Positions 20,694 to 35,248 of a stretch of 35,579 nt of DNA are shown here, one piece after another (within the stretch, counting starts at the first letter, position 1; every line of letters begins with the position of its first letter). The DNA comes from Marinifilaceae bacterium (GTDB lineage: Bacteria; Bacteroidota; Bacteroidia; Bacteroidales; Marinifilaceae), in assembly GCA_016936255.1 (NCBI GenBank), contig JAFGYE010000003.1, positions 1 through 35,579 on the forward strand, given 5' to 3'. Below the pieces are notes generated by a model that made no database searches, was not told the DNA's origin, and saw only the letters and a list, made by a program, of their open reading frames with translations. The translations under genes were made by a program, and so were the position numbers.

Positions 20694-21074
20694 TTAATAA
20701 TTATCTCCGTGGAAAACAACCGAATCTTGAGCAACAATCATGTTATCCTGATAAATTAACAATTTAGCCATTAACTTATCACCTTTTCTAAGATTTATTC
20801 TTGATTCAGAAAGTGAAGAAATGTTCTTCTCCAAAACAGTAAAGGTTCCTTTCTGGGTAGTTTTGGAAGTTCCTGCAACCCCATTTTTTGTCACCACAAA
20901 AATATATCTTAATGTTAAAGCATTACTTCCAATATTTTTAACATTTGCCTTAAGTAAGTGATTTTGAACCTCACTTTCTATCACAATTGATGCTTCAACC
21001 GGCAACTGCCCCATCCCTCCTACGGCATTTAAAATAAAGCACATAACAACTAAAACAACAAGTTTTGCGTGCAT
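20694..21074 (-). CDS. csgH: CsgH-like curli chaperone
   Basis: 126 aa with a signal peptide ending near residue 22 (FILNAVGGMGQ). The mature part is a small beta-sandwich. The stretch VTKNGVAGTSKTTQKGTFTVLEKN ... INLRKGDKLMAKLLIYQDNMIVAQDSVVF follows the CsgH pattern (GxSxTxQxGxF, then GDxxxAxLxVxD). CsgC/CsgH proteins act in the periplasm to keep curlins from forming amyloid too early. It lies just downstream of the minor curlin gene, behind a terminator, with two hairpins in its leader. Family assignment is by pattern; the location beside the curlins supports it strongly. Confidence 0.75.
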   Translation of the reverse strand: MHAKLVVLVVMCFILNAVGGMGQLPVEASIVIESEVQNHLLKANVKNIGSNALTLRYIFVVTKNGVAGTSKTTQKGTFTVLEKNISSLSESRINLRKGDKLMAKLLIYQDNMIVAQDSVVFHGDNY

Positions 21075-21098
21075 TCCTAACTAACTTTGATATTGCAT

Positions 21099-21145
21099 TT
21101 CTAAATTTATTTAATATTTAGAAACGAACCAATATGCAGTTCGTT
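21099..21145. promoter_or_regulatory. two tandem perfect hairpins upstream of csgH
   Basis: TTCTAAAT (21099-21106) pairs with ATTTAGAA (21116-21123), and directly after it AACGAAC (21123-21129) pairs with GTTCGTT (21139-21145). Both have 9-base loops. They lie 25-71 bases before the csgH ATG, as operator sites or leader folds. Confidence 0.4.
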
Positions 21146-21195
21146 AAATTACTATAATAACTTCAAAAAAAAGTACCTATTCTCTAAATTATCTT

Positions 21196-21227
21196 AAAAA
21201 AAAGGGATGCCCGTAAAAGGACATCCC
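21196..21227 (-). terminator. terminator of the csgB-like gene
   Basis: GGGATG (21204-21209) pairs with CATCCC (21222-21227), with two more G-C pairs inside after one mismatch. On the minus strand eight T follow. It separates the minor curlin gene from csgH. Confidence 0.8.
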
Positions 21228-21250
21228 GTCAAATTAAACCTGCTCTGTAT

Positions 21251-21784
21251 TCACAAACCACTTTTTATTATTACATTCATACCAGTTCCAACCTGAGTTA
21301 CAATCATTCCGTTATTTGCCAATCCAGAATCAATCTCTAATTGGTTGTCATTACCAGCTTGAGTAATTTCAAAGCTCTTATTATTCCCAATAACTTCTTG
21401 TTGCAATGAATTGTTATCACCATATTGATGAACGCTAGTGGAAATGTTTTTCCCTTGAAGTAAGGATTCAATAAAGTTTCTATCACCTGATTGTAAAAGT
21501 TCCAAGAGATTAGAATCTCCTTTTTGTATTGCCTTAATCAAGTTCTCCATTCCTACTTGCTGAATAATGGCCAACTGTTCCTGACTAAATTGATGAAGTA
21601 TCAATTCGTTTTCATTTCCTGATTGGATAGCCAAAACTTTTGTTTCAGCATGAATGGCATCAACAGCACCGTAATTTAACTCATTTAGAATCTGATCTTC
21701 AACATTATAATTTTGTCCTACTAGATTACCGAAGCCAAATACGAACAGAGCAAACCATAAATATTTTCGAATAATTACTGACAT
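21251..21784 (-). CDS. csgB: CsgB-like minor curlin
   Basis: 177 aa with an N-terminal signal (MSVIIRKYLWFALFVFGFGNLVGQ). After a 30-residue linker come about ten short curlin steps of the Q-x-G-x-x-N kind: IQSGNEN, QQVGMEN, IQKGDSN, LQSGDRN, HQYGDNN, TQAGNDN, VTQVGTG. The steps are more degenerate and far fewer than in the two big curlins, and the length is close to E. coli CsgB (151 aa), so a nucleator or minor subunit is likely. It starts only 75 bases after the csgA-like gene, with that gene's terminator between and no visible promoter, so expression may come from read-through. Confidence 0.75.
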   Translation of the reverse strand: MSVIIRKYLWFALFVFGFGNLVGQNYNVEDQILNELNYGAVDAIHAETKVLAIQSGNENELILHQFSQEQLAIIQQVGMENLIKAIQKGDSNLLELLQSGDRNFIESLLQGKNISTSVHQYGDNNSLQQEVIGNNKSFEITQAGNDNQLEIDSGLANNGMIVTQVGTGMNVIIKSGL

Positions 21785-21811
21785 AGAAAGGTTTGTGAAA
21801 ACTTTTAGAGG

Positions 21812-21841
21812 AAAAAAATCCCGCCGAAGCGGGAATTTTTT
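21812..21841 (-). terminator. terminator between the first giant curlin and csgB
   Basis: TCCCGC (21819-21824) pairs with GCGGGA (21829-21834), extended by A-T pairs on both sides; T run on either strand. It stands 18 bases past the curlin stop codon. Confidence 0.85.
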
Positions 21842-21859
21842 CTTTTAAATATTTTGTAA

Positions 21860-23503
21860 TTATGGAGTTACAAAGATAGTTCCTGCATTTCCTTGCTGAG
21901 TTACAGCGAAGTTGTCGTTACCATCCTGAATAACCAAACCGAAATGATCGTTACCAACTTGCTCAAGGAATGAGTAGTTGTCGTCACCAAACTGGTAAGT
22001 TAAAGCTGTATTATCATCACCTGTTTGAATAATGAAAGCTTGGTTTCTAGCTCCATCAATTTGACCAATCACAGCAACGTTACCGTCACCATCCTGCAAG
22101 ATGTCAGCTAAACTTTCTTCTTGATCGAACTGGAATACCCAACCGCGGTTGTTATCACCTCTTTGCTCAACTGCAGCATCAGAATCTGATCCACCAAATT
22201 GGCCAACAAATGCGAAGTTATGCTCGCCTTTCTGAAATACATCGGCACTATTCTTCACTCCCCAAATTTGATCAACGATTGCTGTGTTACCATGATCTCT
22301 CTGAACAACTTTTGCTTTATTTCTGGTTCCATAAAGTTGTGATACATAAGCTGTTTGGAATGATCCTTTTTGGTTAACTCTTGCTCTATCACCTGTACCA
22401 AACTTTTGAGTTACATCCGCAAAGTTTCTATAACCATCCTGCATTACATTTACTTTACCTTTTGACTCACCAATTTGCTCAACAAATGCCCAGTTCCGGG
22501 AACCAATTTGAGTTGTTTTAGCATCATTATGATCTCCACCAATCTGAACAGTTCTTGCGCCATTAGCCCAACCGTTTTGATCTATAGAAGCATCATTATC
22601 CACTCCACCTCTTTGGAAAGTTGAAGCTCTGTTAAAATAACCATTTTGATGAATAGTTGCACTATTAGAATAACCACCAATTTGTGTAGTTGTGGCTCTA
22701 TTGAATGCTCTTAACTGAGTGATAGAAGCATTATTAAAACTTCCTCCTAACTGAGTTGTGCTTGCTAAATTACGATATCCCCACTGGTTAATGTATGCAT
22801 GGTTGTGATGTCCACCTCTTTGCATTGTACTTGCTCTATTTGCTCTACCTACTTGTAGAATTTCTGCAGTTGACATATAAGTGTACATTTGAGAAATAGA
22901 TGCAGAATTATACATGCCAAATTGACTTACCATAGCGCTACTGTGAGCACCCATTTGATATACATCACTGTTATTAAATGCACCCCACTGAAGCACACTT
23001 GCAGTATTTGCATGATTCCCTTGCAAAACAGAAGAATAGTTTGCTAATCCTAATTGAGTTACACCTGCCGAATTTAAAAATCCATACTGCAAAACATTAG
23101 ACATATTGAAAAGACCATACTGACTTACAGCAACAGAATTAAACATTCCCATCTGCATAATTCCTGACATGTTACCAAGTCCCATTTGATCAACAACAGC
23201 AGAATTAAAAAAGCCTACCTGATCAACGTAAGAACCATTAAAAGCACCATCCTGAGTTACATCAGCAGTGTTGCCAACAAGAAATTGATCGATGCTTGAG
23301 TAATTAGCAAAACCTGTTTGATCAACAGTTGCACCATTCCACATTCCAAGCTGATCAACATCACTGCTATTAAACCAGCCCACCTGAGTTACACCAGCAG
23401 TGTTCAGCCAACCTGTTTGGTTGACATTCGAATTGTTTACCTGTGCAAATGCAGAAGATACTGCAAAAACAACAGCTACAAATAAAAATAAAAATTTTTT
23501 CAT
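21860..23503 (-). CDS. giant curlin (CsgA-like), 547 aa
   Basis: Signal peptide 1-20 (MKKFLFLFVAVVFAVSSAFA), then about 46 consecutive steps of roughly 11 residues with the curlin signature Q-x-G-x-x-N-x-A-x-x-x-Q, for example TQVGWFN, DQLGMWN, MQRGGHHN, TQIGGYSN, IQTGDDN. This corresponds to about 23 two-strand repeats against five in E. coli CsgA, so one subunit would make a long beta-solenoid. Composition changes along the chain: residues 21-219 contain no Lys or Arg and many Met and aromatics; the middle is rich in Arg and His; the last ~100 are rich in Asp and Glu. It should be secreted by CsgG and form extracellular amyloid. It has its own leader and terminator. Confidence 0.88.
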   Translation of the reverse strand: MKKFLFLFVAVVFAVSSAFAQVNNSNVNQTGWLNTAGVTQVGWFNSSDVDQLGMWNGATVDQTGFANYSSIDQFLVGNTADVTQDGAFNGSYVDQVGFFNSAVVDQMGLGNMSGIMQMGMFNSVAVSQYGLFNMSNVLQYGFLNSAGVTQLGLANYSSVLQGNHANTASVLQWGAFNNSDVYQMGAHSSAMVSQFGMYNSASISQMYTYMSTAEILQVGRANRASTMQRGGHHNHAYINQWGYRNLASTTQLGGSFNNASITQLRAFNRATTTQIGGYSNSATIHQNGYFNRASTFQRGGVDNDASIDQNGWANGARTVQIGGDHNDAKTTQIGSRNWAFVEQIGESKGKVNVMQDGYRNFADVTQKFGTGDRARVNQKGSFQTAYVSQLYGTRNKAKVVQRDHGNTAIVDQIWGVKNSADVFQKGEHNFAFVGQFGGSDSDAAVEQRGDNNRGWVFQFDQEESLADILQDGDGNVAVIGQIDGARNQAFIIQTGDDNTALTYQFGDDNYSFLEQVGNDHFGLVIQDGNDNFAVTQQGNAGTIFVTP

Positions 23504-23517
23504 GGTTGAATTTTTTA

Positions 23518-23533
23518 AAGGTTTAAAGTGAAT
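23518..23533 (-). promoter_or_regulatory. conserved leader box of the giant curlin genes (copy 1)
   Basis: The 16 bases AAGGTTTAAAGTGAAT (plus-strand reading) next to a T6 run lie 15 bases before the curlin ATG and recur unchanged before the other giant curlin at 25501-25516. It is in the 5' untranslated part, so it may be a shared ribosome-loading or stability element. Confidence 0.5.
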
Positions 23534-23662
23534 TAATTTTAAAAATCAATTTTAAAGGTTTAAGAGCTCTGACTGATCTAATAATGCACTTATAGCATCC
23601 TTCGATCTTTTTATCTAAATTAAGCAAAAGCCTTTCCAACCACTCATGTTTTTACACAAACG

Positions 23663-23677: not shown

Positions 23678-23733
23678 TTAAACCAAGTCTCTTTTATGCT
23701 AATATTTATTCATTCTAAAAAAGAATAAGAAAA

Positions 23734-23751
23734 CTTAAACAAAAGTTTAAG
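23734..23751. repeat. hairpin CTTAAAC-aaaa-GTTTAAG
   Basis: A perfect 7-bp stem with a 4-base loop in the curlin intergenic region (349 bases in all, otherwise featureless apart from the palindrome, leader box and terminator). It could be a protein site or processing hairpin. Confidence 0.35.
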
Positions 23752-23772
23752 GTGTCTTAAATACAGGAAATT

Positions 23773-23813
23773 AAAAAACCGTCAAAATCGAATAAAAATC
23801 CAAATTTGACGGT
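23773..23813 (-). terminator. terminator of the second giant curlin
   Basis: ACCGTCAAA (23778-23786) pairs with TTTGACGGT (23805-23813); on the minus strand a run of six T follows. The loop is long (18 bases). Confidence 0.75.
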
Positions 23814-23852
23814 CTTAAATATTATAATTCAATCAGATATTCTGATTACTAA

Positions 23853-25484
23853 TTAGAACCCATTGTACTGACTAACAGTGGCTGAATTTCCATTTCCATA
23901 TTGAGAAACAAACGAAGAGTGACCATAACCATTTTGGTAAACACTTACGAAATTGTTACTTCCTACTTGTTGTGTATAAGATACATTTTCAGCACCAACC
24001 TGAGTTGTAAATGCTACATTATTTTCTCCAAACGCCTGAATAGAAACAGCTGCGTTGTCATCACCATATTGCTGAATTAAAGCGAAACTATTATCCACTT
24101 CATATTGACCAATTCCTGCTGCATTACCATTACCAACCTGAATGATACCTGCAAAAGTATTACCTGTTGCAAATTGTTCAATATATGCATAGTTTTCGTC
24201 GCCTATTTGTGCAACACCTGCATAACTGCCAAAATTTTCTACCTGAAGAATTTCAGCCTCATTAAATTTACCATCTTGTCCAATATATGCATTGTTAAAC
24301 GCCCCGTCAACCTGAGTTATTTTGGCATCATTTCCTTTGCCATACTGCTCAACATCAGCTGCATTAGACCAACCACGTAATTGGTATACAGAAGCTTCAT
24401 TCATCTTGCCTCTTTGTGTTACAACAGCGTTATTAAAGATTCCACCATCCTGAAGTATTTCAGCAGTATTTCTTCTTCCTTGTTGAGAAATCAGACTACG
24501 ATTAAAAGCTCCATCAAGCTGTGCAACAGAAGCTTCATTTCCACGTCCTCTTTGATTAATGGCTGCAAAGTTGGCAAAACCACCATCTTGCTCAGTTACT
24601 GCAACATTATTTTTCCCCTTTTGCATAACTGCAGATTTATTAAAAAATCCTCCATTCTGAAAAGCATATGCCTCATTGAATTTGCCTTCCTGATCCACAT
24701 CAATTTTATTAAAAATACCACCTACTTGTTTTGTCCATACAAGGTTATTTTTACCTTTTTGCATAACAACTGAACTATTCCCTGCTCCAAAAAACTGATC
24801 AACAAATGCGTAATTCATAGATCCATTCTGAGAAACTTCAGCATTATTACGATGTCCCATAAATTGATTAACCAGACCATAGTTAGCAAATCCTCGTTGG
24901 GATACAAGTGCTGAATTTCTAGTTGTTAGTGTTTGATAAATGTTTGCATTATTTAAAACACCCCATTGACTTATGGTTGCCTCATCATACCGACCACCTG
25001 TTTGCATTACATTAGCCGAATTTAAAAATCCAAACTGGAACACATCTGCAGTTTCATGATAACTTAAAAATTGACTGATAACAGACATATTAAGAAATCC
25101 AAATTGATCTACGTCTGCCTTATTGTAACTTCCCCAAAATTGAGAAATATAAGATGCATTAAATCCTAACTGATCAACCTCTGCAAGATTATAACTTCCA
25201 ACTTGTAAAGCTCTTGAAAAATTAGTCACAGACTGAGTTGCATAATACTCATTCCCTACACCATACTGATCTAGAAATGACATGTTTAGAAATCCGTATT
25301 GCTTAACGTCAGCGATATTATCGGTCCCATTTTGATAAATGTCATTGATATTCAGAACACCTACTTGTTCTACTGCAGACAAATTGTCATTACCAACTTG
25401 GTTAACGCTGGATTGGTTGATTTGGGCAAACGAAACTACCCCAGTACATAGTACTGCTAAAAAGATGAATAAAATCTTTTTCAT
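23853..25484 (-). CDS. giant curlin (CsgA-like), 543 aa
   Basis: Signal peptide 1-20 (MKKILFIFLAVLCTGVVSFA), then again about 46 curlin steps: NQVGNDN, EQVGVLN, DQFGFLN, MQKGKNN, NQRGRGN, TQRGKMN, QQYGDDN, SQYGNGN. In the middle third two step types alternate strictly. One is a seven-residue basic kind (QKGKNN, QEGKFN, QRGRGN, QQGRRN, QRGKMN, QYGKGN). The other is an eight-residue kind with Gly and an aromatic (QVGGIFN, QNGGFFN, QDGGFAN, QLDGAFN, QDGGIFN). In a solenoid this puts Lys/Arg on one edge and Phe on the other. The last 129 residues have no Lys or Arg. Likely a second major subunit or partner of the 547-aa curlin, transcribed from its own leader. Confidence 0.88.
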   Translation of the reverse strand: MKKILFIFLAVLCTGVVSFAQINQSSVNQVGNDNLSAVEQVGVLNINDIYQNGTDNIADVKQYGFLNMSFLDQYGVGNEYYATQSVTNFSRALQVGSYNLAEVDQLGFNASYISQFWGSYNKADVDQFGFLNMSVISQFLSYHETADVFQFGFLNSANVMQTGGRYDEATISQWGVLNNANIYQTLTTRNSALVSQRGFANYGLVNQFMGHRNNAEVSQNGSMNYAFVDQFFGAGNSSVVMQKGKNNLVWTKQVGGIFNKIDVDQEGKFNEAYAFQNGGFFNKSAVMQKGKNNVAVTEQDGGFANFAAINQRGRGNEASVAQLDGAFNRSLISQQGRRNTAEILQDGGIFNNAVVTQRGKMNEASVYQLRGWSNAADVEQYGKGNDAKITQVDGAFNNAYIGQDGKFNEAEILQVENFGSYAGVAQIGDENYAYIEQFATGNTFAGIIQVGNGNAAGIGQYEVDNSFALIQQYGDDNAAVSIQAFGENNVAFTTQVGAENVSYTQQVGSNNFVSVYQNGYGHSSFVSQYGNGNSATVSQYNGF

Positions 25485-25500
25485 GGTTTGTAAATTTTTT

Positions 25501-25534
25501 AAGGTTTAAAGTGAATAGATCAGGTCACCCTGAT
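25501..25534 (-). promoter_or_regulatory. conserved leader box (copy 2) and adjoining hairpin
   Basis: AAGGTTTAAAGTGAAT at 25501-25516 repeats the leader box of the other giant curlin. Directly beyond it ATCAGG (25519-25524) pairs with CCTGAT (25529-25534) around a 4-base loop. This is the 5' leader of the 543-aa curlin transcript. Confidence 0.45.
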
Positions 25535-25807
25535 TTAAAAGTTTTACTAATTTGGTTGTTGATTGATTTTTACTTGATAATTTATGTTTTATGTTTTTAA
25601 ATTCTAATTAAAAGTAAATAGATCTATTGAATTTATAATATTAGATTACATCAAACATCAAAATAATATGATGAATATAACCAAGAAATTGATGAATATG
25701 AATCAAAGTTTTAAATTCAACATAAAAGGTTAATGAAAATTAAACTTAATGATGTAAATTGTTGATTGCAATATATTTACATGCAATTGGACGAGAATAA
25801 CTCAAAC
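25535..25807. other. AT-rich upstream region of the second giant curlin
   Basis: No frame of interest. It must hold the promoter of the 543-aa curlin gene, because csgG upstream ends in a strong terminator. No good TAnnTTTG box was found on the minus strand, so control may depend on an activator or another sigma factor. Confidence 0.4.
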
Positions 25808-25836
25808 AAAAAAAGGGCTGGATAAATATCCGGCCC
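25808..25836 (-). terminator. terminator of the csgEFG operon
   Basis: GGGCTGGATA (25815-25824) pairs with TATCCGGCCC (25827-25836), one G-U pair, terminal bases forming the loop; seven T follow on the minus strand. Confidence 0.85.
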
Positions 25837-25857
25837 CGTTAACAACTTGTTACTATT

Positions 25858-27321
25858 TTATTCAGTAGATGTAGACTGACTTTCTACTTTTTTTTGTATT
25901 TTTTCTTTTCTGTTTTTTTTCTTCTTATTTCTATCCCAAATCTTATCAAAATAGAAATTCAAGCCGATTTTCCCTTCCCAAAAATAATCATTAAAATTTC
26001 CTTGTTTCAATCCATCTATATTGTCATTGAATATATAATGATTCAATACAGACAAATTCAAGCCAATACGATCATTAAATAAAAATTCCACCCCAACTCC
26101 ATATAATGCCTGAGTATATATGGAATTTGAAAGATCTATAGTATAGATAGATTTTTCATGTTCCGAAAAAACACCCAAGCCACCTTCAATATACGGAGTC
26201 CAATCTTTATAAGGTAATAAACGATATTTAGCCGTTATATCCAGAGAATTATAAGTTCTTTGAAAATAATTTGTTGTTGCAAGATCTCCCCGGCTAAAAT
26301 TAAGTCCAAACTGCAATGCTGTTTGAGTATCGTACAATAAAGACACACCAGCCATTGCTTCCATCTCTGTGTGCTTATAATCTCCCATATACAACCATGA
26401 TCCGCCATTAAAACCTAAACCAAATTTACGGCGACGTGGGGTAACTAACTGATCAAAGAAATCAGCTCCCTGATTATCCTCTTTCCCTTCAACATATTTT
26501 GTTATTACATCTGAATTAACATCTTCCGGATTCTTCAAATCCCAAAGACCTTCAATTACTCCTTCAATAATTAATGACTCTACAGCTTTCTCTATTGCTT
26601 CTTTCACAGCCATTTCAGATGGTTCATTATAGGTGAAACCAACCTCAGCCTCAAGCAGACGTTTGAACTTAACATATCGAAAAATACTAGCATCCAATTT
26701 TTGAGAAAGAATCATTTTTGAAGTATACACAGTCTTTAGAATTCGACCATTACTTGTAGAAATAGCCCGAAGATAAACTGTTACCCTATCTTGCCGATAT
26801 TGACCAGAAGCACCAGCACCAAAATACTTTAATCCAGCACCACCAGTCAGAACATTGGCATCGTAACTAATAACACCACCTTCCAATACCAACCCGGCAA
26901 ACAAAAGAGGTGGCAATAATTGAGAACTTTCATTCTGACCGGCATAATTTGCACGGCTTGATCGTATAATTTTCCTTTCATTCAATAAATTAGATAAACC
27001 TTCTCTTTCAATAGGAATAAACCAACCCGATTCTTCAATTGCTTTTAAGAGTATTGATGTGGTTCCCTGAGTAACCGCAGTCGACCAATTGGCTCCATTA
27101 TCTGAAGGTTTGTATTGCCCGGTCTGATCGCGAAATTTATACACTGCAGCAACCATCTTTTCTTTTGGCTCAGGTAAGCCAACCAAACTTTTCCTTGCTG
27201 GCGTTTCGGCTCCAATTTCTGCTCTTTGTTCACTTAAAGGCTGATTAAAATATGGAACACATCCATTGATGAGAGGCAGTAAAATTAAAATACTATAGTA
27301 GTGGCGTATACATTTAAACAT
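25858..27321 (-). CDS. csgG: CsgG curli secretion channel with C-terminal beta-barrel domain
   Basis: 487 aa; E. coli CsgG has 277. Lipobox LINGC makes Cys21 the lipidated residue. Residues about 30-265 are CsgG: LPEPKEKMVAAVYKFRDQTGQYKPS, WSTAVTQGTTSILLKAIEESGWFIPIEREGLSNLLNERKIIR, VLEGGVISYDANVLTGGAGLKYFG and RQDRVTVYLRAISTSNGRILKTVYTSK. CsgG forms a nine-fold pore in the outer membrane through which curlins leave. About residues 280-460 are an added outer-membrane barrel of OmpA/PorT type (KFGLGFNGGSWLYMGDY ... YRLLPYKDWTPYIEGGLGVF ... GKIGLNFYF), followed by a Lys-rich tail. It is the last gene of the unit, 28 bases after csgF. Confidence 0.95.
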   Translation of the reverse strand: MFKCIRHYYSILILLPLINGCVPYFNQPLSEQRAEIGAETPARKSLVGLPEPKEKMVAAVYKFRDQTGQYKPSDNGANWSTAVTQGTTSILLKAIEESGWFIPIEREGLSNLLNERKIIRSSRANYAGQNESSQLLPPLLFAGLVLEGGVISYDANVLTGGAGLKYFGAGASGQYRQDRVTVYLRAISTSNGRILKTVYTSKMILSQKLDASIFRYVKFKRLLEAEVGFTYNEPSEMAVKEAIEKAVESLIIEGVIEGLWDLKNPEDVNSDVITKYVEGKEDNQGADFFDQLVTPRRRKFGLGFNGGSWLYMGDYKHTEMEAMAGVSLLYDTQTALQFGLNFSRGDLATTNYFQRTYNSLDITAKYRLLPYKDWTPYIEGGLGVFSEHEKSIYTIDLSNSIYTQALYGVGVEFLFNDRIGLNLSVLNHYIFNDNIDGLKQGNFNDYFWEGKIGLNFYFDKIWDRNKKKKNRKEKIQKKVESQSTSTE

Positions 27322-27349
27322 ATATAGGGAATTAGCGGGTAATTATTTA

Positions 27350-27772
27350 TTAATAACTGGGAATAACAATATTTGTAAAATTTCCGTTTGTGATATCACT
27401 TACATTCACAGTAACACCACTGGCATCTTCGGAAATATCCACCTTGTAATTTCCAAGATTATACGAACCGGTTTCAAGTTGATTGTTATCGCCAAAAATA
27501 GAGTTAACCAATTTACTTGATAATTGATTCAAAATTTGTCGGTTCAGATTATCCTGAAAATCATCCAACGGATCATTATTTAATGCACTATCCGCATTTG
27601 GATCTTCAATTCTATTTTGCTGGGTAGCAGAATTCAATAACCAATTGTAATTGTACTGATCACCCCCAAAAGATGAATTTATTGGTTTATACACAAAATC
27701 CTGAGCCATAGATTCTGTTGAGAATAACAAACTCAGAAAAGACAAAACAAATACTATTTTTATAATATTCAT
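27350..27772 (-). CDS. csgF: CsgF curli assembly protein
   Basis: 140 aa, normal size. Signal peptide to about residue 23 (SMAQ). The mature start DFVYKPINSSFGGDQYNYNWLLNSATQQN is the CsgF hallmark; in E. coli this segment inserts into the CsgG pore and forms a second constriction, while the rest holds the nucleator at the surface. LETGSYNLGNYKVDI near the end also fits the family. It lies 17 bases after csgE. Confidence 0.93.
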   Translation of the reverse strand: MNIIKIVFVLSFLSLLFSTESMAQDFVYKPINSSFGGDQYNYNWLLNSATQQNRIEDPNADSALNNDPLDDFQDNLNRQILNQLSSKLVNSIFGDNNQLETGSYNLGNYKVDISEDASGVTVNVSDITNGNFTNIVIPSY

Positions 27773-27789
27773 GGTTCACAGTTTAAAGT

Positions 27790-28302
27790 TCAAAACATTC
27801 CCGTTCCCTGTTGATCTTCATCCTCAAGTTGGGCATTCATTTTTTCGTAATTATTTAAAAATTGCATCGCCATTTGATTGGCATATTGGGACATTTGTTC
27901 CAACACTTCATAGCGTGGCTGAACTCTTTGTTTAAATACTTCATTATCATTTACCAAAACAATAATCTGAGTTGCCAGGCCTGGTAAAACCATTTCTTTA
28001 ATCGTGATGGTGAAATTTTTCGCTTTTTGAGGCGCGATCCAAACGGAAAAAAACATATCATAGAAATCACGCCCTACTTTGGTAATTGTTTCATCCATAA
28101 CCAAACCATCAACTTCCATTTCAGAACCTACATTTTCATAGACCGTATTTTTTTCGACAATATCATCAAGTGTTTGTTGAAGTATTTTTAATGTTTTTAT
28201 TGAGTCACTCACATCTTCTGTTTCCTGCCCCTTCGTTTCCGTGAGAGGAACAAAAAACATAAAAAGAAAAATTAATAGTAAAACCCTATAAAAATATCTC
28301 AT
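27790..28302 (-). CDS. csgE: CsgE curli secretion specificity factor
   Basis: 170 aa from the ATG at 28302, which puts the signal peptide (RYFYRVLLLIFLFMFFVPLTETKG) at the N-terminus; an ATG nine codons upstream is less likely. The core GLVMDETITKVGRDFYDMFFSVW ... FTITIKEMVLPGLATQIIVLVNDNEVFKQRVQPR matches CsgE (E. coli [36 protein letters not shown]). CsgE caps the CsgG channel on the periplasmic side and selects curlins. It has a longer C-terminal helix and acidic tail than E. coli CsgE (129 aa). Confidence 0.92.
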   Translation of the reverse strand: MRYFYRVLLLIFLFMFFVPLTETKGQETEDVSDSIKTLKILQQTLDDIVEKNTVYENVGSEMEVDGLVMDETITKVGRDFYDMFFSVWIAPQKAKNFTITIKEMVLPGLATQIIVLVNDNEVFKQRVQPRYEVLEQMSQYANQMAMQFLNNYEKMNAQLEDEDQQGTGMF

Positions 28303-28401
28303 TTGAATTTCAATAAAATCAATGATCATTACAACATAAATATATCATTTCTAAATTTAATATCATAACAATACCAAATTCAATAGACTACTCTTAAGGA
28401 A

Positions 28402-28427
28402 TCTTAACTTTTGTTAACCAGTTAAGA
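28402..28427. promoter_or_regulatory. 8-bp inverted repeat between porP/sprF and csgE
   Basis: TCTTAACT (28402-28409) and AGTTAAGA (28420-28427), 10-base loop, in the 175-base gap between the two genes. No T run, so a weak processing or operator site is more likely than a terminator. Confidence 0.35.
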
Positions 28428-28477
28428 ATAATTAAACTCCAACAACCTGACTGTTAACAATATTCCATTCATTCATC

Positions 28478-29497
28478 TTAAAATTTAGGACATCGAATAG
28501 CACGTATTCTTCTTTTCTTTCTTAAAAAATGAGTTCCCGAACAAGAAGATTTTGCCTTTCCCAATAAATAGCTAAGTGATATCTCGTGAGCTCCTGAATT
28601 TGTTTTCACCAAATTAGACACCACATAATCATAGGAATAACCAATTCTAATTTTATCAGTTTGGTAACCAATCAAAAAAATGAATGCATCAAAATCGAAG
28701 GAAAGATTATGACGAAACCAAGCACCAACAACCCAGTTATTTCTGGATAAATACATCCCGTAATTTATTTGCTCAAAATTCAATTGCCGTTGATACAATA
28801 TATTTGGCGAAATTGTATAATTGCTCTTCATTAAACCACGAGAATATCCCATCGAAATATTTGCTCCTGCATGTACTGTATATTTACGAGGTAAAACCGC
28901 TGCATTTTGTTCTGAATTAAAAGCTTCATTAGGTTCTGATAGATGATCAATTACACCTCCAAAATAAATACTTTTGTAATTCACGATGATGCCCATGGAA
29001 AAATCCCAGTACGATTTGCTCAAATTGCTTGGCTGAACTTCTCTGGAAGGATAAATCACTCCATACAATGGATCTATCATATCTGAAAACACAAATGAAC
29101 TCCAATCCAATTTCCGTTGAATATAACCAGCCTTGAATCCAACATTCATTGATAGATTTCGATTAATATCCAAGGAGTATGAATACATTCCGGAAGCTGT
29201 GATTGTTTTAATTGCTCCTTGTCCCTGATTATCCTGAAGAATTAATATTCCCAGTCCTCCATTCATCAAATCAACAAATTGATCATAGGAAGCACTATAA
29301 GTAACAAAAGGGCGATTATTCTGAGGCCATTGATTCCGATATGACATTCCTAAAGTTGGAACATACTCTGATCCTGCAAAGGCAGGATTAAGATAAAGCC
29401 GGTTTGCGTAAAACTGAGAGAACTCAACGTCCTGAGCCTTGACCAATGAAGTCAAAAACAAACAACAAACGATATAAATAAACCTCCATTTTACCAT
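28478..29497 (-). CDS. PorP/SprF family T9SS-associated outer-membrane protein
   Basis: 339 aa. Signal peptide to residue 21 (TSLVKA/QD). The mature start DVEFSQFYANRLYLNPAFAGSE is the signature of PorP/SprF, and the body is a beta-barrel with repeated short strands. The C-terminus (SGTHFLRKKRRIRAIRCPKF) has the basic stretch and Cys often found in these proteins. PorP/SprF proteins hold type B-sorted T9SS substrates (such as SprB) at the cell surface. The gene starts one base after the stop of the giant T9SS type B protein, so the two are almost certainly translated together and act as a pair. Confidence 0.9.
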   Translation of the reverse strand: MVKWRFIYIVCCLFLTSLVKAQDVEFSQFYANRLYLNPAFAGSEYVPTLGMSYRNQWPQNNRPFVTYSASYDQFVDLMNGGLGILILQDNQGQGAIKTITASGMYSYSLDINRNLSMNVGFKAGYIQRKLDWSSFVFSDMIDPLYGVIYPSREVQPSNLSKSYWDFSMGIIVNYKSIYFGGVIDHLSEPNEAFNSEQNAAVLPRKYTVHAGANISMGYSRGLMKSNYTISPNILYQRQLNFEQINYGMYLSRNNWVVGAWFRHNLSFDFDAFIFLIGYQTDKIRIGYSYDYVVSNLVKTNSGAHEISLSYLLGKAKSSCSGTHFLRKKRRIRAIRCPKF

Positions 29498-29498
29498 T

Positions 29499-32400
29499 TT
29501 ATCTAATTAAAGAAACATTTCCATCCTGACGAACTTTCCCATTAACAATCAAGATCCAAACATATACTCCTGTATTTGCTTTCTTCCCTTTATAGGTACC
29601 ATCCCAACCCTGCCCCAAATCAGTAAATGTATAAATCAGCTCCCCCCAACGATTGTATATAAACATCTCAATATCTTCACCAGCAATATCACCTGTAATT
29701 AACGGACCAAAAGTATCATTGACACCATTTCCGTCAGGTGTGAAAGCATTAGGAACAAATATTCGATACCGATCAACATAAACCATGATGGAATCCATCC
29801 CTCTGCAGCCATGCATGTCTGTATATTCCAGAAAGTACTTTCCTTCTTCAGTTACCGTATAAGTTGAGGCCGTAGTGCCATCCTGCCATAAATAATTGCC
29901 TGGTAAGAACCTCACATCTATTGAGGGTGATAATATTTTTGATTCGGTGTAAAATATTGTTGTATCCATTCCTAAATCAAAAAATGGCTTATCATGAACA
30001 GTAAAATCAATCACCGAGGAATTAGCGCATCCATTTTCTATTTTAGCAAAATAACTTTCATTGGAACGAATTGTTAGTTTAAGTGGATTTAAAACAGGAA
30101 GAAGTAAATCAACATCTTCATACCAACTTACCGTAACAGATATATTTGATGTTACCTGATTATTAAGCGCAGTCAGATCATAATTCACAACCTCTCCTGT
30201 TCCCAAAACATCCTCACACAATTCTATACTTAGATCATTTGCTTCCGGCAATGGGTTAACTATGAAATTTAATCTTCCAGTATTATCGCATGAACTCGCA
30301 TTAGTGGCAAGGGCATAATATGAACTTTGATTAAAGATCGTTACATCCGCAGGATTTACTACAGGAATATTCAATTGGTCATCTTCGAACCATTGCACAT
30401 TTGCAGCAGGATCGTTACTTACCTGCAAATTGTAATTGGTAAGGTTTATTCCAGACAATGAGGAAGATCCAAAACTCTCTTCACAAACTACCTCGTTAAC
30501 ATTTGTGGTTTGAGGCAAGGCTAAAATAGCAAATGATAGTTCTGCAAAATTCTCGCAGACACCATTCCAAACTCTTGCGTAATATACATCTCCGTCTGAG
30601 ATCAGAACATTTTGAGTATTTAAAACAGGATTGGAATAAGTTGCTTCAGAATACCAAATAATTGTACTGGTTGCTGATGTTGTAATATCAGAATAGTAAT
30701 CATTCAAATTTTCTCCTCTCACTTGCCTGGAATTGAAAACATCTTCACATAAGGAGACTTGATGGTTTTGAGCTTCAGGCAAGGCATTGATTGCAAAATC
30801 AATTCTTCCAACATTACTCTCCACACCAAAACTTACACGAACAAAAAAACTGTCTCCATTGGAAATGGCTGTGTTCATAGGATTTGGAACTGGCAAACTC
30901 AAGGCTAAATCAAAAAACCATTCTTTAACTGTTCCCGGATCATTGTTTACTGCAGGCTCTAATTGAGACAGATCATAGGATGTCAGTAAACCACTTCCCG
31001 CAACATCTTCACATAACTCAACCTGCAAATTATTTGCTTCAGGTAAATTTCGAACAGTAAATGTTATAATTGCAGAGTTTTGGCAAGTACCGTCATCCAC
31101 TAAGGCATAATAATTGTCTCCTGTTGTTACACTTACATTATCGGGAGTTAACACAGGAATTGAATGCAAAACATCTTCATACCACGATATTGAATTGCTT
31201 GAAACCAGTGAATTATAAGCTAACAAATTTATTCCTGTCGCCAAACCTGTTCCAAAAGTGTCTTCCCAAACCTCAACAGTTTGATTGACAGCACCGGGTA
31301 ATGAATTAACGGTATAAGTAACGGTGGCAACATTCGTATTAAAGGCATCGCTTATTGATGCAAAAAAACGATCGTCATTTGCAGCAATTACATTTGCAGG
31401 GTCAGGAATTACATTCGTGGGTAATCCATTGGGTTCTGTTGGCCAATCACTATACCATGCAAATGAATCACCATTTCCTTCATTAATTTGATTCTCAAGT
31501 AAATTTAAATCAACCAAAGCAGTACCGGTTCCAACAACATCTTCACATACAACGGGAAATACATTTCTGGCAATTGGTGTGTTAACCACTGAAAAATCAA
31601 CAGTTGCAACATTTGAACATGTTCCATTCGAAACCAAAACATAAAAAACATCACCATCTGCAACATCTTGATTTGTTGGATCAGGAACCAAATTTGTAAG
31701 ACCAAGATCTAAGTACCAATCAATTGAGTTTGATTGCCCGCCAAGTATCATATTATTGTGAAAACTTAAATCTACGCCAAGAGAAATCATAGATCCGGGC
31801 ACATCTTCAAATTCAACAATACTTTGGTTATTCGCAATTGGTAAAGCAAGAACCGTGTAGGCAACTGTGGCCGTATTCGACTCGCCGGCACTTTGAACAA
31901 GAACATAAAACACCTGCCCGCTTGTGACACTTACATTTGAAGGGTTTGCTACAGGAGTTAATAATGTGGCATCTGTAAACCAATTTACGCTACTAGCTGT
32001 TCCTCCATTTACAGCACTATTAAGCAACAACAAATCAATATTAGATGCAATCCCACTTCCAAACACATCCTCGCACACATCTATATCTAAATTATTTGCA
32101 ATTGGCGATGATCGTATTGTGAACTTGATACTTCCGCGATTTAAACATGATCCATTGTCAATATATGCGTAAAAAACTTCCTGATCATTCACAACAAGGT
32201 TAGTTGTATTTACAATTGGATTTGTTAATGCTGCATCAAAATACCATACGATATTATTTGATCCCGCAACCTGTATATTATAGGATGTTAAATCAACACC
32301 CGAAGCTGTTCCTGAACCAAAACTATCTTCCCAAATTTGAATAGAAACATCATTCCCCTCGGGAAGTGTCTCAATAGTGTAAGTAACAGTGGCAATACTT

Positions 32401-34262
32401 GTCTCAGTACCTGTTGATACCTGAGCATAAAAAACTTCACCATTGGAAACTATCCTATTATTAGAATTTATTACTGGCTGTGTCAAAGCAAGATCATGGA
32501 ACCATGTTACAGTGAAACCATTATTATTTGTGATTGCTGCTTCGAGAAATGTTAGGTCAATATTGGAAACAATACCCGTATTGTAATTATCTTCGCAAAG
32601 AGTAATATTTTGGTCCAAAGCTTTTGGTAAAGAATTCACCGTATAAGTTACAACAGCAATACTGCTGCAAAAACCATCATTCACCTCAACCCAAAATTGT
32701 TGTCCGTTATTAACCATAACGGCAGTGGCATCAGGGACAAGAGTTGTTAGGCTGGCATCAGAATACCATGTGAAAGTTGCTCCAGCCAGACTACTAACAG
32801 CGCCTTCCAAAAAAGTCAAATCTATACCTGTTGCAATTCCTGTACCTTGAAGATCTTCCCAAACAGACTGTGATTGATCATTAACTATTGGCAAAGAACG
32901 TATTGCCACAGCTTGAGTAACATTATCTGTTCCACCTGAAATCAAACTAACCTCTAAATTAACATTGTAGATGTTTGCTGTTCCGTAAATATGATTTACT
33001 GTGAAAGGACTGGTATTAGAAGTTAATACAGTTCCATCACCAAAATTCCAGCTTGCGCTTGAAATATTTGCCAAATCGGAACTGATTGTAAACTCAGTAT
33101 TGTCTCCCAGACAGTCATGCTGATAGGCAAACTCAAGGGTGAAAATACTGGTCACAAAATTTGGCAAACCTAACCGACATCTTCTTCCAGATAAATTTTT
33201 CGAATCAGCTACAAAATTTGCCCCAGCTCCGGCAATATCCGGATTATTAATTACATCCAAATTTAGACTTCCGGTTGTTCCGTCAGTATTTGTTTTGGCC
33301 ATGTAAATTCTATTATCCGGAGCCAATTGAATTGCACCATACAACCACGGTCCACTTCCAATAACTTGAGCAGATCCATTAATCGTTGCCTGATTATTCG
33401 ATGAAATATTAAACTGATACAAATCTCCACTGGTGAATAAACTGACATATAAATATTCACCCGAGGGAGAAAATTCAATTCCGTATGGTGTTGCGTAGTT
33501 ATTTAATTGAATTGGATTGGAAACATTACCTGTTGCTGTATTAAAATCGAATAATTCAACTCTATCCTGAGTATAAATTGCGACAGCCAGTTTCGATCCG
33601 TTAGGTGACATTTTCATATAACCAATTGCAGATCTCCTATCTCCATCGTGTCGTACTCCAATGGTACTAATTACCGGTGTCGAAATACCTGCTGCAGTAA
33701 ATTCGTAGGCATAAAAATCACGCGTATCCCATGGATGCATAAGAACCCAAAAATCAGTACCATTAGCATGTTTAACCGCGGTTACTTTTTCGCAAACCTC
33801 ACTTCCATACAAAACCGTATTTTTAACTGTCACAGCACCAAGTCCACCATTTTGTGATAAATCAACAATCGAGTAATTTAAACCATTCCGAAGAGCATTT
33901 TGATGAGCATCAACAGTAAATATATAATAGAGTGTCGCACTTCCCGGCTGCTGTACAATTATTGAAGATTGGGTTGCTGAAGAGTTGCCATCCAAACCTG
34001 TTCCATTAGCCATTACTGCATGGGTCTTATTATACACTGTAACTCCATCTGTATAAAATAACAGGTCTCCTTGCAACGTACAAACAGTTGAACAACCTTC
34101 CTCTGTATTTAAACTACCATCGGTTAAAGCAACAGAAGGGCTTACATTAAAATCCAAGCCTGCATTTTCTCCAAAATACCATATCCCAGCCTGTCCCTGA
34201 CCAAATGCTAAATTTGAAGACAAAAAGAGGTGAAAAAGTACTATTCGAAATACAGATTTCAT
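29499..34262 (-). CDS. giant surface protein with propeller, PKD, eleven Ig-like repeats and T9SS type B domain
   Basis: 1587 aa. Signal peptide 1-21. Residues about 22-370 look like a seven-blade-type beta-propeller (GIWYFGENAGLDFN ... MSPNGSKLAVAIY ... FSPSGEYLYVSLF). About 375-455 is a PKD domain (SASWNFGDGTVLTSN). Then come eleven Ig-like repeats of 85-93 residues (about 455-1425), each starting W/C/F-E-D-x-x-G-x-G and carrying a VxWFxD and FYAxVxNG core. After a linker domain, the last ~85 residues (RIFVPNAFTPDGNGVNDTF ... NRWGELIYTFTDLGQGWDGTYKGK) are the type B sorting domain (CHU_C, gliding-associated). The protein should be exported by T9SS and held by the PorP/SprF protein encoded next. 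Role: adhesin or scaffold, here first in the curli secretion operon. Confidence 0.93.
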   Translation of the reverse strand: MKSVFRIVLFHLFLSSNLAFGQGQAGIWYFGENAGLDFNVSPSVALTDGSLNTEEGCSTVCTLQGDLLFYTDGVTVYNKTHAVMANGTGLDGNSSATQSSIIVQQPGSATLYYIFTVDAHQNALRNGLNYSIVDLSQNGGLGAVTVKNTVLYGSEVCEKVTAVKHANGTDFWVLMHPWDTRDFYAYEFTAAGISTPVISTIGVRHDGDRRSAIGYMKMSPNGSKLAVAIYTQDRVELFDFNTATGNVSNPIQLNNYATPYGIEFSPSGEYLYVSLFTSGDLYQFNISSNNQATINGSAQVIGSGPWLYGAIQLAPDNRIYMAKTNTDGTTGSLNLDVINNPDIAGAGANFVADSKNLSGRRCRLGLPNFVTSIFTLEFAYQHDCLGDNTEFTISSDLANISSASWNFGDGTVLTSNTSPFTVNHIYGTANIYNVNLEVSLISGGTDNVTQAVAIRSLPIVNDQSQSVWEDLQGTGIATGIDLTFLEGAVSSLAGATFTWYSDASLTTLVPDATAVMVNNGQQFWVEVNDGFCSSIAVVTYTVNSLPKALDQNITLCEDNYNTGIVSNIDLTFLEAAITNNNGFTVTWFHDLALTQPVINSNNRIVSNGEVFYAQVSTGTETSIATVTYTIETLPEGNDVSIQIWEDSFGSGTASGVDLTSYNIQVAGSNNIVWYFDAALTNPIVNTTNLVVNDQEVFYAYIDNGSCLNRGSIKFTIRSSPIANNLDIDVCEDVFGSGIASNIDLLLLNSAVNGGTASSVNWFTDATLLTPVANPSNVSVTSGQVFYVLVQSAGESNTATVAYTVLALPIANNQSIVEFEDVPGSMISLGVDLSFHNNMILGGQSNSIDWYLDLGLTNLVPDPTNQDVADGDVFYVLVSNGTCSNVATVDFSVVNTPIARNVFPVVCEDVVGTGTALVDLNLLENQINEGNGDSFAWYSDWPTEPNGLPTNVIPDPANVIAANDDRFFASISDAFNTNVATVTYTVNSLPGAVNQTVEVWEDTFGTGLATGINLLAYNSLVSSNSISWYEDVLHSIPVLTPDNVSVTTGDNYYALVDDGTCQNSAIITFTVRNLPEANNLQVELCEDVAGSGLLTSYDLSQLEPAVNNDPGTVKEWFFDLALSLPVPNPMNTAISNGDSFFVRVSFGVESNVGRIDFAINALPEAQNHQVSLCEDVFNSRQVRGENLNDYYSDITTSATSTIIWYSEATYSNPVLNTQNVLISDGDVYYARVWNGVCENFAELSFAILALPQTTNVNEVVCEESFGSSSLSGINLTNYNLQVSNDPAANVQWFEDDQLNIPVVNPADVTIFNQSSYYALATNASSCDNTGRLNFIVNPLPEANDLSIELCEDVLGTGEVVNYDLTALNNQVTSNISVTVSWYEDVDLLLPVLNPLKLTIRSNESYFAKIENGCANSSVIDFTVHDKPFFDLGMDTTIFYTESKILSPSIDVRFLPGNYLWQDGTTASTYTVTEEGKYFLEYTDMHGCRGMDSIMVYVDRYRIFVPNAFTPDGNGVNDTFGPLITGDIAGEDIEMFIYNRWGELIYTFTDLGQGWDGTYKGKKANTGVYVWILIVNGKVRQDGNVSLIR

Positions 34263-34304
34263 ACTTGGCAGATATTAAAAAAAAGAAAAACAAACAAGTT
34301 GTTT
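34263..34304 (-). promoter_or_regulatory. leader of the giant-protein operon with short palindrome
   Basis: AAACAAGTTGTTT (34292-34304) is a 6+1+6 palindrome 30 bases before the start of the 1587-aa protein. The region to 34396 is AT-rich; an ATATTTTG (one mismatch to the -7 box) lies near 34350 without a -33 box. Promoter position remains uncertain. Confidence 0.3.
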
Positions 34305-34396
34305 AATATAGCTTAAACATTGATTACCTATTACTTACACACAATTTACAAAATATATCCAATCAATTAATCAGATGCTGTTTGTAATTAAATAAA

Positions 34397-34438
34397 AATC
34401 AGGCAATCCTTCCATGAGTCATGAATAATTACCTGATT
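34397..34438 (-). terminator. terminator of the small HTH gene
   Basis: AATCAGG (34397-34403) pairs with CCTGATT (34432-34438), extended by AAT/ATT after one mismatch. T-rich sequence follows on the minus strand. Confidence 0.6.
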
Positions 34439-34473
34439 ATTAATATTAGTTAAACGGCATTGGTCAAAAAAAA

Positions 34474-34662
34474 TTAACTAAGGCCTAAGTAATCAAAGAG
34501 TTTTGACTTAACAGTTGTGGTCAATGGTCGTTTTCCATTAAGAATATAAGACAAATACACATCTGTAACACCAATAATCTTGGCAACTTTCTTCTTCTTA
34601 TCATCAAGAATTCTGAGTCTGTCTTTAATTCTAACTAAATCATCCTGAACTTCCTGCTTCAT
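34474..34662 (-). CDS. small helix-turn-helix protein
   Basis: 62 aa from the ATG at 34662 (MKQEVQDDLVRIKDRLRILDDKKK); an upstream TTG would add eight residues. The C-terminal half KKVAKIIGVTDVYLSYILNGKRPLTTTVKSKLFDYLGL has the XRE-type helix-turn-helix form (VAKxxGVTxxYLSxxLNGKR...). It is shorter than usual for XRE regulators and has no ligand domain. It is encoded just before the curli operon on the same strand, with its own terminator, so it is a candidate local regulator. Confidence 0.7.
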   Translation of the reverse strand: MKQEVQDDLVRIKDRLRILDDKKKKVAKIIGVTDVYLSYILNGKRPLTTTVKSKLFDYLGLS

Positions 34663-34822: not shown

Positions 34823-35248
34823 TTAGTTCGGACTATAATCAAGTCCGGAACCAATAGCTTTTTTTAAATCGAATAAACGAAGTTGCTTCTGAAGCAATTC
34901 GTAATTCATATAGAGTGCTTTTCGGTTTTCCAACTTCGAAGATTTTTCATCGCGGTCCACCGTAATAACAACTTTGGTTTCTTTAAAATTATCATTAATG
35001 AATTTTAGCACATCCATATCAGATAAAGCCTTTAAGGGTATAATTACCAAATCAATGGTTGTCTGATTTAAAATAATTTCCATTTCGGCAGTATCATCAG
35101 CAAAATATGCTTTGGCATCCAAACTCTGAATGTATTCTTTCAGCTCATCAATAAGAGATCTATTTTCTTTAACAAATAAGATATTCATAGGTTCATCTGA
35201 TGAAGGAAGAATTTTCAATGAGTTACCTTCCAGTATTAACACATCCAT
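34823..35248 (-). CDS. degenerate response-regulator receiver domain protein
   Basis: 141 aa from the ATG at 35248; an in-frame ATG at 35188 would start exactly at the receiver fold (MNILFVKENRSLIDELKEYIQSLD) and give 121 aa. The fold order fits a CheY-like receiver: strand 1 ILFVKEN, then AYFADDTAEMEIIL, DLVIIPLKALSDMDVLKFI, KVVITVD. The acidic pair after strand 1 is reduced to Lys-Glu, and the phosphorylated Asp at the end of strand 3 is Pro (DLVIIP), so it cannot be phosphorylated in the usual way. No output domain. Its place before the HTH gene and curli operon suggests a regulatory partner, but this is inference. Confidence 0.6.
   Translation of the reverse strand: MDVLILEGNSLKILPSSDEPMNILFVKENRSLIDELKEYIQSLDAKAYFADDTAEMEIILNQTTIDLVIIPLKALSDMDVLKFINDNFKETKVVITVDRDEKSSKLENRKALYMNYELLQKQLRLFDLKKAIGSGLDYSPN

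Follow-up and report, generated by a model that had tools for sequence, protein, structure and literature searches.

Curli genes and a type B adhesin of the type IX secretion system may form one surface-matrix regulon in the Labilibaculum-Marinifilum clade

Known type B substrates of the type IX secretion system (T9SS) depend on a PorP/SprF protein of their own to be secreted, and remain attached to it afterwards (PMC9143113, PMC12618676, PMC12635249; all papers cited in this work are drawn on in excerpt). In Flavobacterium johnsoniae, static anchoring is associated with a neighbouring PorE (PMC12618676). SprF carries a Cys-X-Cys pair that bonds Cys343 of GldK, a component of the gliding track (PMC12635249). 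As regards curli, the excerpts of Dueholm et al. (PMC3521004) state that the systems of Bacteroidetes do without csgD except in Spirosoma. Here we describe a stretch of 35,579 nucleotides (the window) from a Marinifilaceae bacterium (GenBank assembly GCA_016936255.1, contig JAFGYE010000003.1), in which a gene for a giant T9SS type B surface protein and its porP/sprF neighbour are followed on the same strand by csgE, csgF and csgG, and further on by curlin genes. The locus shows known parts in a new arrangement. Judging from sequence, its best-supported reading is joint control, and we regard it as somewhat probable that the curli genes and the type B adhesin of the Labilibaculum-Marinifilum clade make up one surface-matrix regulon.

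The order, strand and gaps of the five genes (1, 175, 17 and 28 bases) reported in a preliminary description of this DNA agree with the open reading frames (ORFs) and with their Pfam and NCBIfam matches. The C-terminus of the giant matches the type B sorting domain TIGR04131 (48.8 bits, cut-off 35, NCBIfam) and CHU_C (E 8.8e-15, 55 bits, cut-off 27, Pfam), and Ig_7 and PKD were also matched. The next protein matches PorP_SprF (2.4e-57, Pfam) and TIGR03519 (233.4 bits, cut-off 90.55). CsgE (2.1e-21), CsgF (2.8e-38) and CsgG (2.5e-64) are all above the Pfam cut-offs, and their matches to the NCBIfam equivalog models fall under the cut-offs of those models. An alternative, longer csgE ORF would span 27790-28329.

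CsgF was found in 18 of the 56 genomes of the family, in 5 of its 17 genera, and the order giant-porP-csgE-csgF stands in all 18, our own included. The order is more than chance: it recurs in 17 other genomes. The gap between giant and porP is 1-2 bases in 17/17 of these other loci; csgG follows in 17 of the 18 genomes (the contig of L035 ends before csgG, that of L036 after it), and the curlins come next in the same order wherever the contig reaches. A profile built on the N-terminal domain of the giant picks out the same 18 genomes at E below 1e-229. Among the 38 csgF-lacking genomes of the family no homologue of full strength was found, and one genome has a weaker one (8e-85). This homologue (L320:7910-12685) is 1591 aa long, shares 27.6% identity with the giant and stands alone, without PorP or csg genes. 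In a scan of named genomes with the giant, the best 80 of 214 matches gave 79 loci, to which L223 was added; csg genes are present in 15 of these, all of them Labilibaculum or Marinifilum (72-92% identity), and absent in 65, in two of which PorP adjoins the protein. Outside the family, CsgF was found in 6/295 sampled genomes of the order and in 50/395 sampled genomes of the phylum, our own being counted in each. From these, 45 outside loci were read (5/5 at the order level and 40/49 at the phylum level; the other nine comprise the four with the weakest matches above the cut-off and the five below it), and in none of them did an ORF match PorP or the giant's N-terminal domain, although very distant relatives could escape such profiles. 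The PorP profile, built from 27 sequences, detected PorP in 7/7 control loci, two of which had not been used in building it. Among the 45 loci there is a single type B ORF, which follows the csg genes and is encoded on the other strand. In the genomes covered, the neighbourhood was found in one clade only.

Intrinsic terminators were sought on the csg strand as a hairpin followed by a T run, at a threshold of -8 kcal/mol and with the same-species copy (L040) left out. They stand before the giant and after csgG (Table 1), the latter being the first strong terminator, as previously proposed, and none was found in the gaps porP-csgE (0/17), csgE-csgF (0/17) and csgF-csgG (0/16). Very short gaps, including the single base between giant and porP, are too small to hold a terminator and were scored zero. 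The shuffle controls for the regions before the giant, after csgG and between porP and csgE gave 1, 0 and 0, respectively. Because terminators were seen at the ends and none inside, a single terminator-bounded unit giant-porP-csgEFG is supported. A simpler terminator scan of the window gave 6 matches against a shuffle mean of 6.6 and did not include the hairpin at the end of csgG, and a sigma-70 scan was uninformative (39 promoter-like matches against a shuffle mean of 55.9). In favour of the co-transcription suggested earlier, no terminator was found between porP and csgE in any of the 17 genomes; a conserved palindromic block lies in that gap, however, so that a second start for csgEFG is probable and a single promoter before the giant would not account for everything.

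The pattern GTTTAAK-N4-MTTA (in a shorter form GTTTAA-N6-TTA) emerged when the upstream regions of four genes, those of the giant, CsgE and the two long curlins (csgA1 and csgA2), were read side by side. Within the window the strict palindrome has 6 matches, where 0.17 are expected from shuffles, and all six are intergenic and precede one of these four genes. In the family loci the loose palindrome was found upstream of the giant in 16/17, of csgE in 14/17, of csgA1 in 15/15 and of csgA2 in 15/15 cases (the last count being inflated by the leader sequence near the csgA2 start, GTTTAAAGTGAATTA); for the strict palindrome the values are 7/17, 12/17, 13/15 and 14/15, respectively. The loose form is absent before the csgB-like ORF (0/12), csgH (0/9), the PD40-like gene (0/2) and the receiver gene (0/16) of the family loci. 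Intergenic DNA of the flanks holds 10 loose matches in 28.6 kb, and the palindrome is missing from all 12 orthologous intergenic regions of the flanks that were seen in five or more genomes. The porP-csgE gap is strongly conserved across 16 aligned sequences, and its second palindrome, TTAAGN4CTTAA, has no match in 222 kb of flanks. At the 45 csg loci outside the family we found six loose intergenic matches. Two of these precede a csg gene, at a similar site in the similar loci L094 and L095; since it is nearly absent from the outside loci, the palindrome looks clade-specific.

The same palindrome marks a second giant. A genome-wide scan placed one match before the gene of a 4102-aa type B protein on another contig (L253:4987-18537, G000:C43), with a PorP gene 246 bases downstream. 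This gene is present in 17/18 csg-bearing genomes, with identities down to 49%, and carries the upstream palindrome in 15/17 of them, or in 13/15 without our own and the same-species genome. In csg-lacking genomes the palindrome precedes it in 1/6 cases, at a different position. As the site came from a scan and was not picked out by eye, the pattern is tested more independently by the conservation of this site.

Taken together, these observations suggest the following course of events. Transcription starting before the giant would run through porP, csgE, csgF and csgG and stop after csgG, with the conserved control block between porP and csgE probably providing a second start for csgEFG. One putative DNA-binding regulator would read GTTTAAK-N4-MTTAAAC in front of both giants, the one described here and the unlinked one of 4102 aa, as well as in front of csgE, csgA1 and csgA2. 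The giant would be exported by the T9SS and then held by the PorP encoded downstream, like known type B pairs; because the giant-porP pair fits the known type B pattern, such export and retention are likely by analogy. The curlins would leave via CsgG with CsgE and CsgF. Both products would thus be made simultaneously, as parallel components of the matrix, and direct contact between them is not needed. The proposal that the two export routes are built together survives as joint control, for which the shared palindrome speaks, as does the finding of no terminator between porP and csgE; adjacency itself is weak evidence for it. If correct, this would be a specific cis element predicted for a Bacteroidota curli regulon, the same element marking two T9SS type B adhesins, and the coupling of two export systems would thereby become directly testable.

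Table 1. Features of the locus, in window coordinates and in the order in which the minus strand is read
Feature	Position	Strand	Remarks
141-aa receiver-like ORF ahead of the unit, a degenerate response regulator	34823..35248	-	Response_reg E 0.0053, below cut-off; kept in family loci
Small HTH_3 (Cro/C1-type) protein, 62 aa from ATG	34474..34662	-	HTH_3 E 2.4e-5 for the copy in L040 (same species); coordinates by eye
Operator-like site GTTTAACTAATATTA, upstream of giant	34441..34455	-	Loose pattern only
Intrinsic terminator, after HTH gene, before giant	34396..34439	-	17/17 genomes below -8 kcal/mol
Palindromic operator-like site GTTTAAG-CTAT-ATTAAAC, upstream of giant	34301..34318	.	
Giant T9SS type B surface protein, 1587 aa	29499..34262	-	TIGR04131, CHU_C, Ig_7 and PKD matches
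PorP/SprF carrier, 339 aa	28478..29497	-	Starts 1 base past the giant's stop
Operator-like site GTTTAATTATTCTTA, porP-csgE gap	28423..28437	-	
Second palindrome TTAAGN4CTTAA, porP-csgE gap	28394..28407	.	Window and 17/17 family loci
csgE	27790..28302	-	Gap 175 after porP (ATG at 28302, judged likelier by eye)
csgF	27350..27772	-	Gap 17 after csgE
csgG	25858..27321	-	Gap 28 after csgF; C-terminal 8-stranded outer-membrane barrel domain at about residues 299-458
Intrinsic terminator after csgG (hairpin and T run)	25813..25838	-	15/15 genomes
Operator-like site GTTTAATTTTCATTA, upstream of csgA1	25731..25745	-	
csgA1, 543-aa curlin	23853..25484	-	Curlin_rpt 7.4e-70
Intrinsic terminator after csgA1	23775..23818	-	13/15 genomes; coordinates obtained by counting
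Two operator-like sites upstream of csgA2	23726..23740, 23745..23759	-, +	
csgA2, 547-aa curlin	21860..23503	-	Curlin_rpt 1.2e-66
Short curlin-repeat ORF (177 aa), in csgB place	21251..21784	-	Curlin_rpt 1.1e-8; below NCBIfam CsgA/CsgB cut-offs
CsgH-like chaperone	20694..21074	-	NF041112 38.8 bits, cut-off 35

Several results weigh against a common regulon. The strict pattern is found in less than half of the giant upstream regions, and genome-wide it is not enriched: with one more base fixed it has 24 matches, against 33 for the reversed control, six of the 24 falling in the 35.6-kb contig. The related pattern GTTAAGN4CTTAA is not enriched either (4 against 15). Since the palindrome was first spotted by eye in these very regions, the giant is only a partly independent test. 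With a profile built from the csgE, csgA1 and csgA2 sites of the Marinifilum side, about 0.05 equal matches are expected in our own giant region and up to 0.33 in others, 2 of 300 shuffles of our own giant region reached its score, and the background of this test is contaminated with loci chosen for the motif; it lends no more than moderate support. A PorP gene adjacent to the unlinked giant was seen in our own genome only. Lastly, the genomes are one clade, so the counts are not independent events, and about 40 kb around the unit, with both flanks, are collinear in 7/7 compared genomes (the same-species one excluded), bar single missing genes. Because the whole region is collinear, adjacency within the clade says little about function, and we dropped neighbourhood conservation as a proof of it after this control. 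The downstream flank contains, among other genes, rplS, a C69 peptidase, an M23 peptidase and RNase Y. When 13 loci of csg-lacking relatives were followed outward from the C69 gene, other genes were found there, which give no signal on a joint gain or loss of giant and csg genes.

The collinearity is what would be expected of neutral neighbours, i.e. if giant and porP had landed beside the csg genes once in the ancestor of the clade and had stayed since the region hardly rearranges, their functions being unrelated. The absence of such genes from the 45 outside loci fits this equally, as do the nine PorP/SprF matches in our own genome, PorP standing beside another type B protein in five loci read, and the orphan giant homologue of the same length in a csg-lacking family member. 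However, the palindrome common to four unit starts and the unlinked giant speaks against mere neighbours, as does a block that is terminated at both ends and shows no terminator between porP and csgE, and we consider this explanation unlikely. A different possibility is suggested by the tail of PorP, in which two cysteines at -20 and -3 are invariant in 18/18 sequences (contexts SSC or TSC, and RCPKF or KCPKF); of the other eight PorP/SprF proteins in our own genome only two have a tail cysteine (at -3 and at -7). The C-tail might be disulfide-bonded to a GldK track, so that the giant would be carried like SprB, with curli building a matrix for moving or settling. Our own genome has GldJ (484.8 bits, cut-off 458.2) and GldK (610.7 bits, cut-off 350), the GldK ORF having a cysteine in NDQGCFLAN, a candidate equivalent of Cys343. 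The bond between SprF and GldK described above is a precedent, and general scans, none of them aimed at PorE, gave no PorE-like match among the neighbours. On the other hand, the SprF motif Cys-X-Cys is not present in this tail, where the cysteines are 17 positions apart, the gliding literature found concerns other organisms, and the PorP of the unlinked giant has, by eye, a serine in place of the last tail cysteine. We hold a moving adhesin of this type to be a tentative idea, doubtful at present.

The preliminary description went further and inferred one surface structure, for example with the giant as a surface-anchored scaffold on which curli fibres are received, nucleated or aligned; the products of T9SS and CsgG would then form one organelle. 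With no terminator found inside the unit, a single transcript could indeed encode the curli exporter together with the giant and the carrier of the giant, and the giant is built as might be expected of a rigid rod: its length is 1587-1598 aa in 16/17 sequences (1767 in L046), and 20/20 cysteines are kept in 17/17. Six pairs of these are exactly 24 residues apart and lie, by eye, across the junctions of Ig domains, which suggests disulfide staples between neighbouring domains. However, the giant has no curlin repeat by Pfam, and a giant acting in place of CsgB, as had been suggested, is not supported, given the short curlin-repeat ORF found in csgB place, so the nucleator need not be missing. 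Moreover, the 45 other Bacteroidota csg loci read have no such giant beside csgEFG. A composite structure thus seems quite improbable to us. A combination of the last two ideas, in which a track-linked giant on PorP organises CsgG-exported curli into a motor-driven or surface-patterned amyloid coat, one regulator also controlling the unlinked 4102-aa giant, is very unlikely in our estimate. We retain joint control of parallel matrix components as the preferred reading.

The giant consists of an N-terminal domain, PKD, about 11 Ig_7-like repeats (counted by eye) and the CHU_C/type B sorting domain. The best Foldseek matches of its first 640 residues are the grappling hook protein GhpA of Aureispira (9flp, E 4.8e-14) and an archaeal YVTN propeller-PKD surface protein (1l0q, E 5.2e-12). 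The template-modelling (TM) scores normalised by query are low, 0.24 and 0.23, respectively, and the model has a mean predicted local distance difference test (pLDDT) value of 61.3, so that a beta-propeller/PKD/Ig-like fold of the N-terminal part is a lead only. Sequence searches found no solved relatives of either PorP or the giant, and no relatives of its N-terminal domain in a viral collection. Upstream of the unit, the small HTH_3 protein, with its helix-turn-helix (HTH) domain, is a candidate regulator by position only. At the same-species locus this protein is 70 aa long from an upstream start, and further upstream are genes for a PAS histidine kinase and for a regulator of the NtrC type, on account of which a sigma-54 promoter was considered as a possibility.

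Downstream of csgG lie the curlin genes and a PD40-like gene (a label assigned from its sequence). The label csgB for the short curlin-repeat ORF is our own; according to the excerpts of Dueholm et al. (PMC3521004), CsgA and CsgB can be distinguished only in Gammaproteobacteria. CsgD and CsgC were not seen among the window proteins scanned, and no genome-wide search was aimed at either. A common conserved leader (TTCACTTTAAACCTT...AACCATG) stands right before the start codons of csgA1 and csgA2 (window 25485-25520 and 23504-23540). Strong hairpins with T runs also occur after csgA2 (8/12, 21785-21859) and after the short curlin ORF (5/9, 21075-21250), and the hairpins among the curli subunit genes are possible dosage attenuators. 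The 45 outside loci gave 44 CsgG ORFs, all of 450-531 aa, and 42 of them match the barrel profile; the E. coli CsgG chain used for comparison has 277 aa. The barrel is OmpA/NspA-like by Foldseek, with a weak similarity to PorG, and it is the only usable part of the CsgG structure model (mean pLDDT 41.1). Extra barrels in a ring round the CsgG pore would be unusual. Our own genome also has a second CsgG-family gene of 308 aa, which is too short for the barrel (L252:5732-6935, G000:C73); an operator-like match lies within about 20 bases upstream, between this gene and a divergent 991-aa ORF. In 13/45 outside loci (L094, L095, L097, L101 and nine among L103-L125) the CsgE and CsgH profiles both match one ORF of at least 230 aa, possibly a CsgH-CsgE fusion, although contamination of the profiles may play a part. 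Such possible fusions entered the retraining of the csgE profile, hence the CsgE and CsgH labels outside the family are individually unreliable.

It is worth comparing the locus with the described systems. In the open-licence literature searched, no title or abstract was found to link curli with PorP/SprF or with type B cargo of the T9SS; a few papers contain both sets of words, for instance the T9SS review PMC5445135 and OMPdb (PMC9581022). The giant and its porP resemble SprB-SprF of F. johnsoniae, and other pairs of type B C-terminal-domain proteins with PorP/SprF, in as much as a long type B surface protein has its cognate PorP/SprF directly downstream. Unlike in SprB-SprF, csgEFG follow here, the palindrome is common with the curlin genes, and the cysteine spacing of the tail is different. 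The locus shares the csg genes and several curlin genes with the curli operons that Dueholm et al. (2012; PMC3521004) described in Bacteroidetes, in an arrangement that varies between genera; PorP and T9SS genes go unmentioned in the excerpts of that paper, and none of the 45 outside loci read here has PorP. Finally, CsgE, CsgF, CsgG and the curlin-repeat subunits, recognised here from the genes alone, are those of the type VIII system of E. coli (csgBAC/csgDEFG), from which the present locus differs by the C-terminal barrel of CsgG, by curlins of 543-547 aa, by a CsgH-like gene and by csgEFG standing in one unit with a T9SS substrate.

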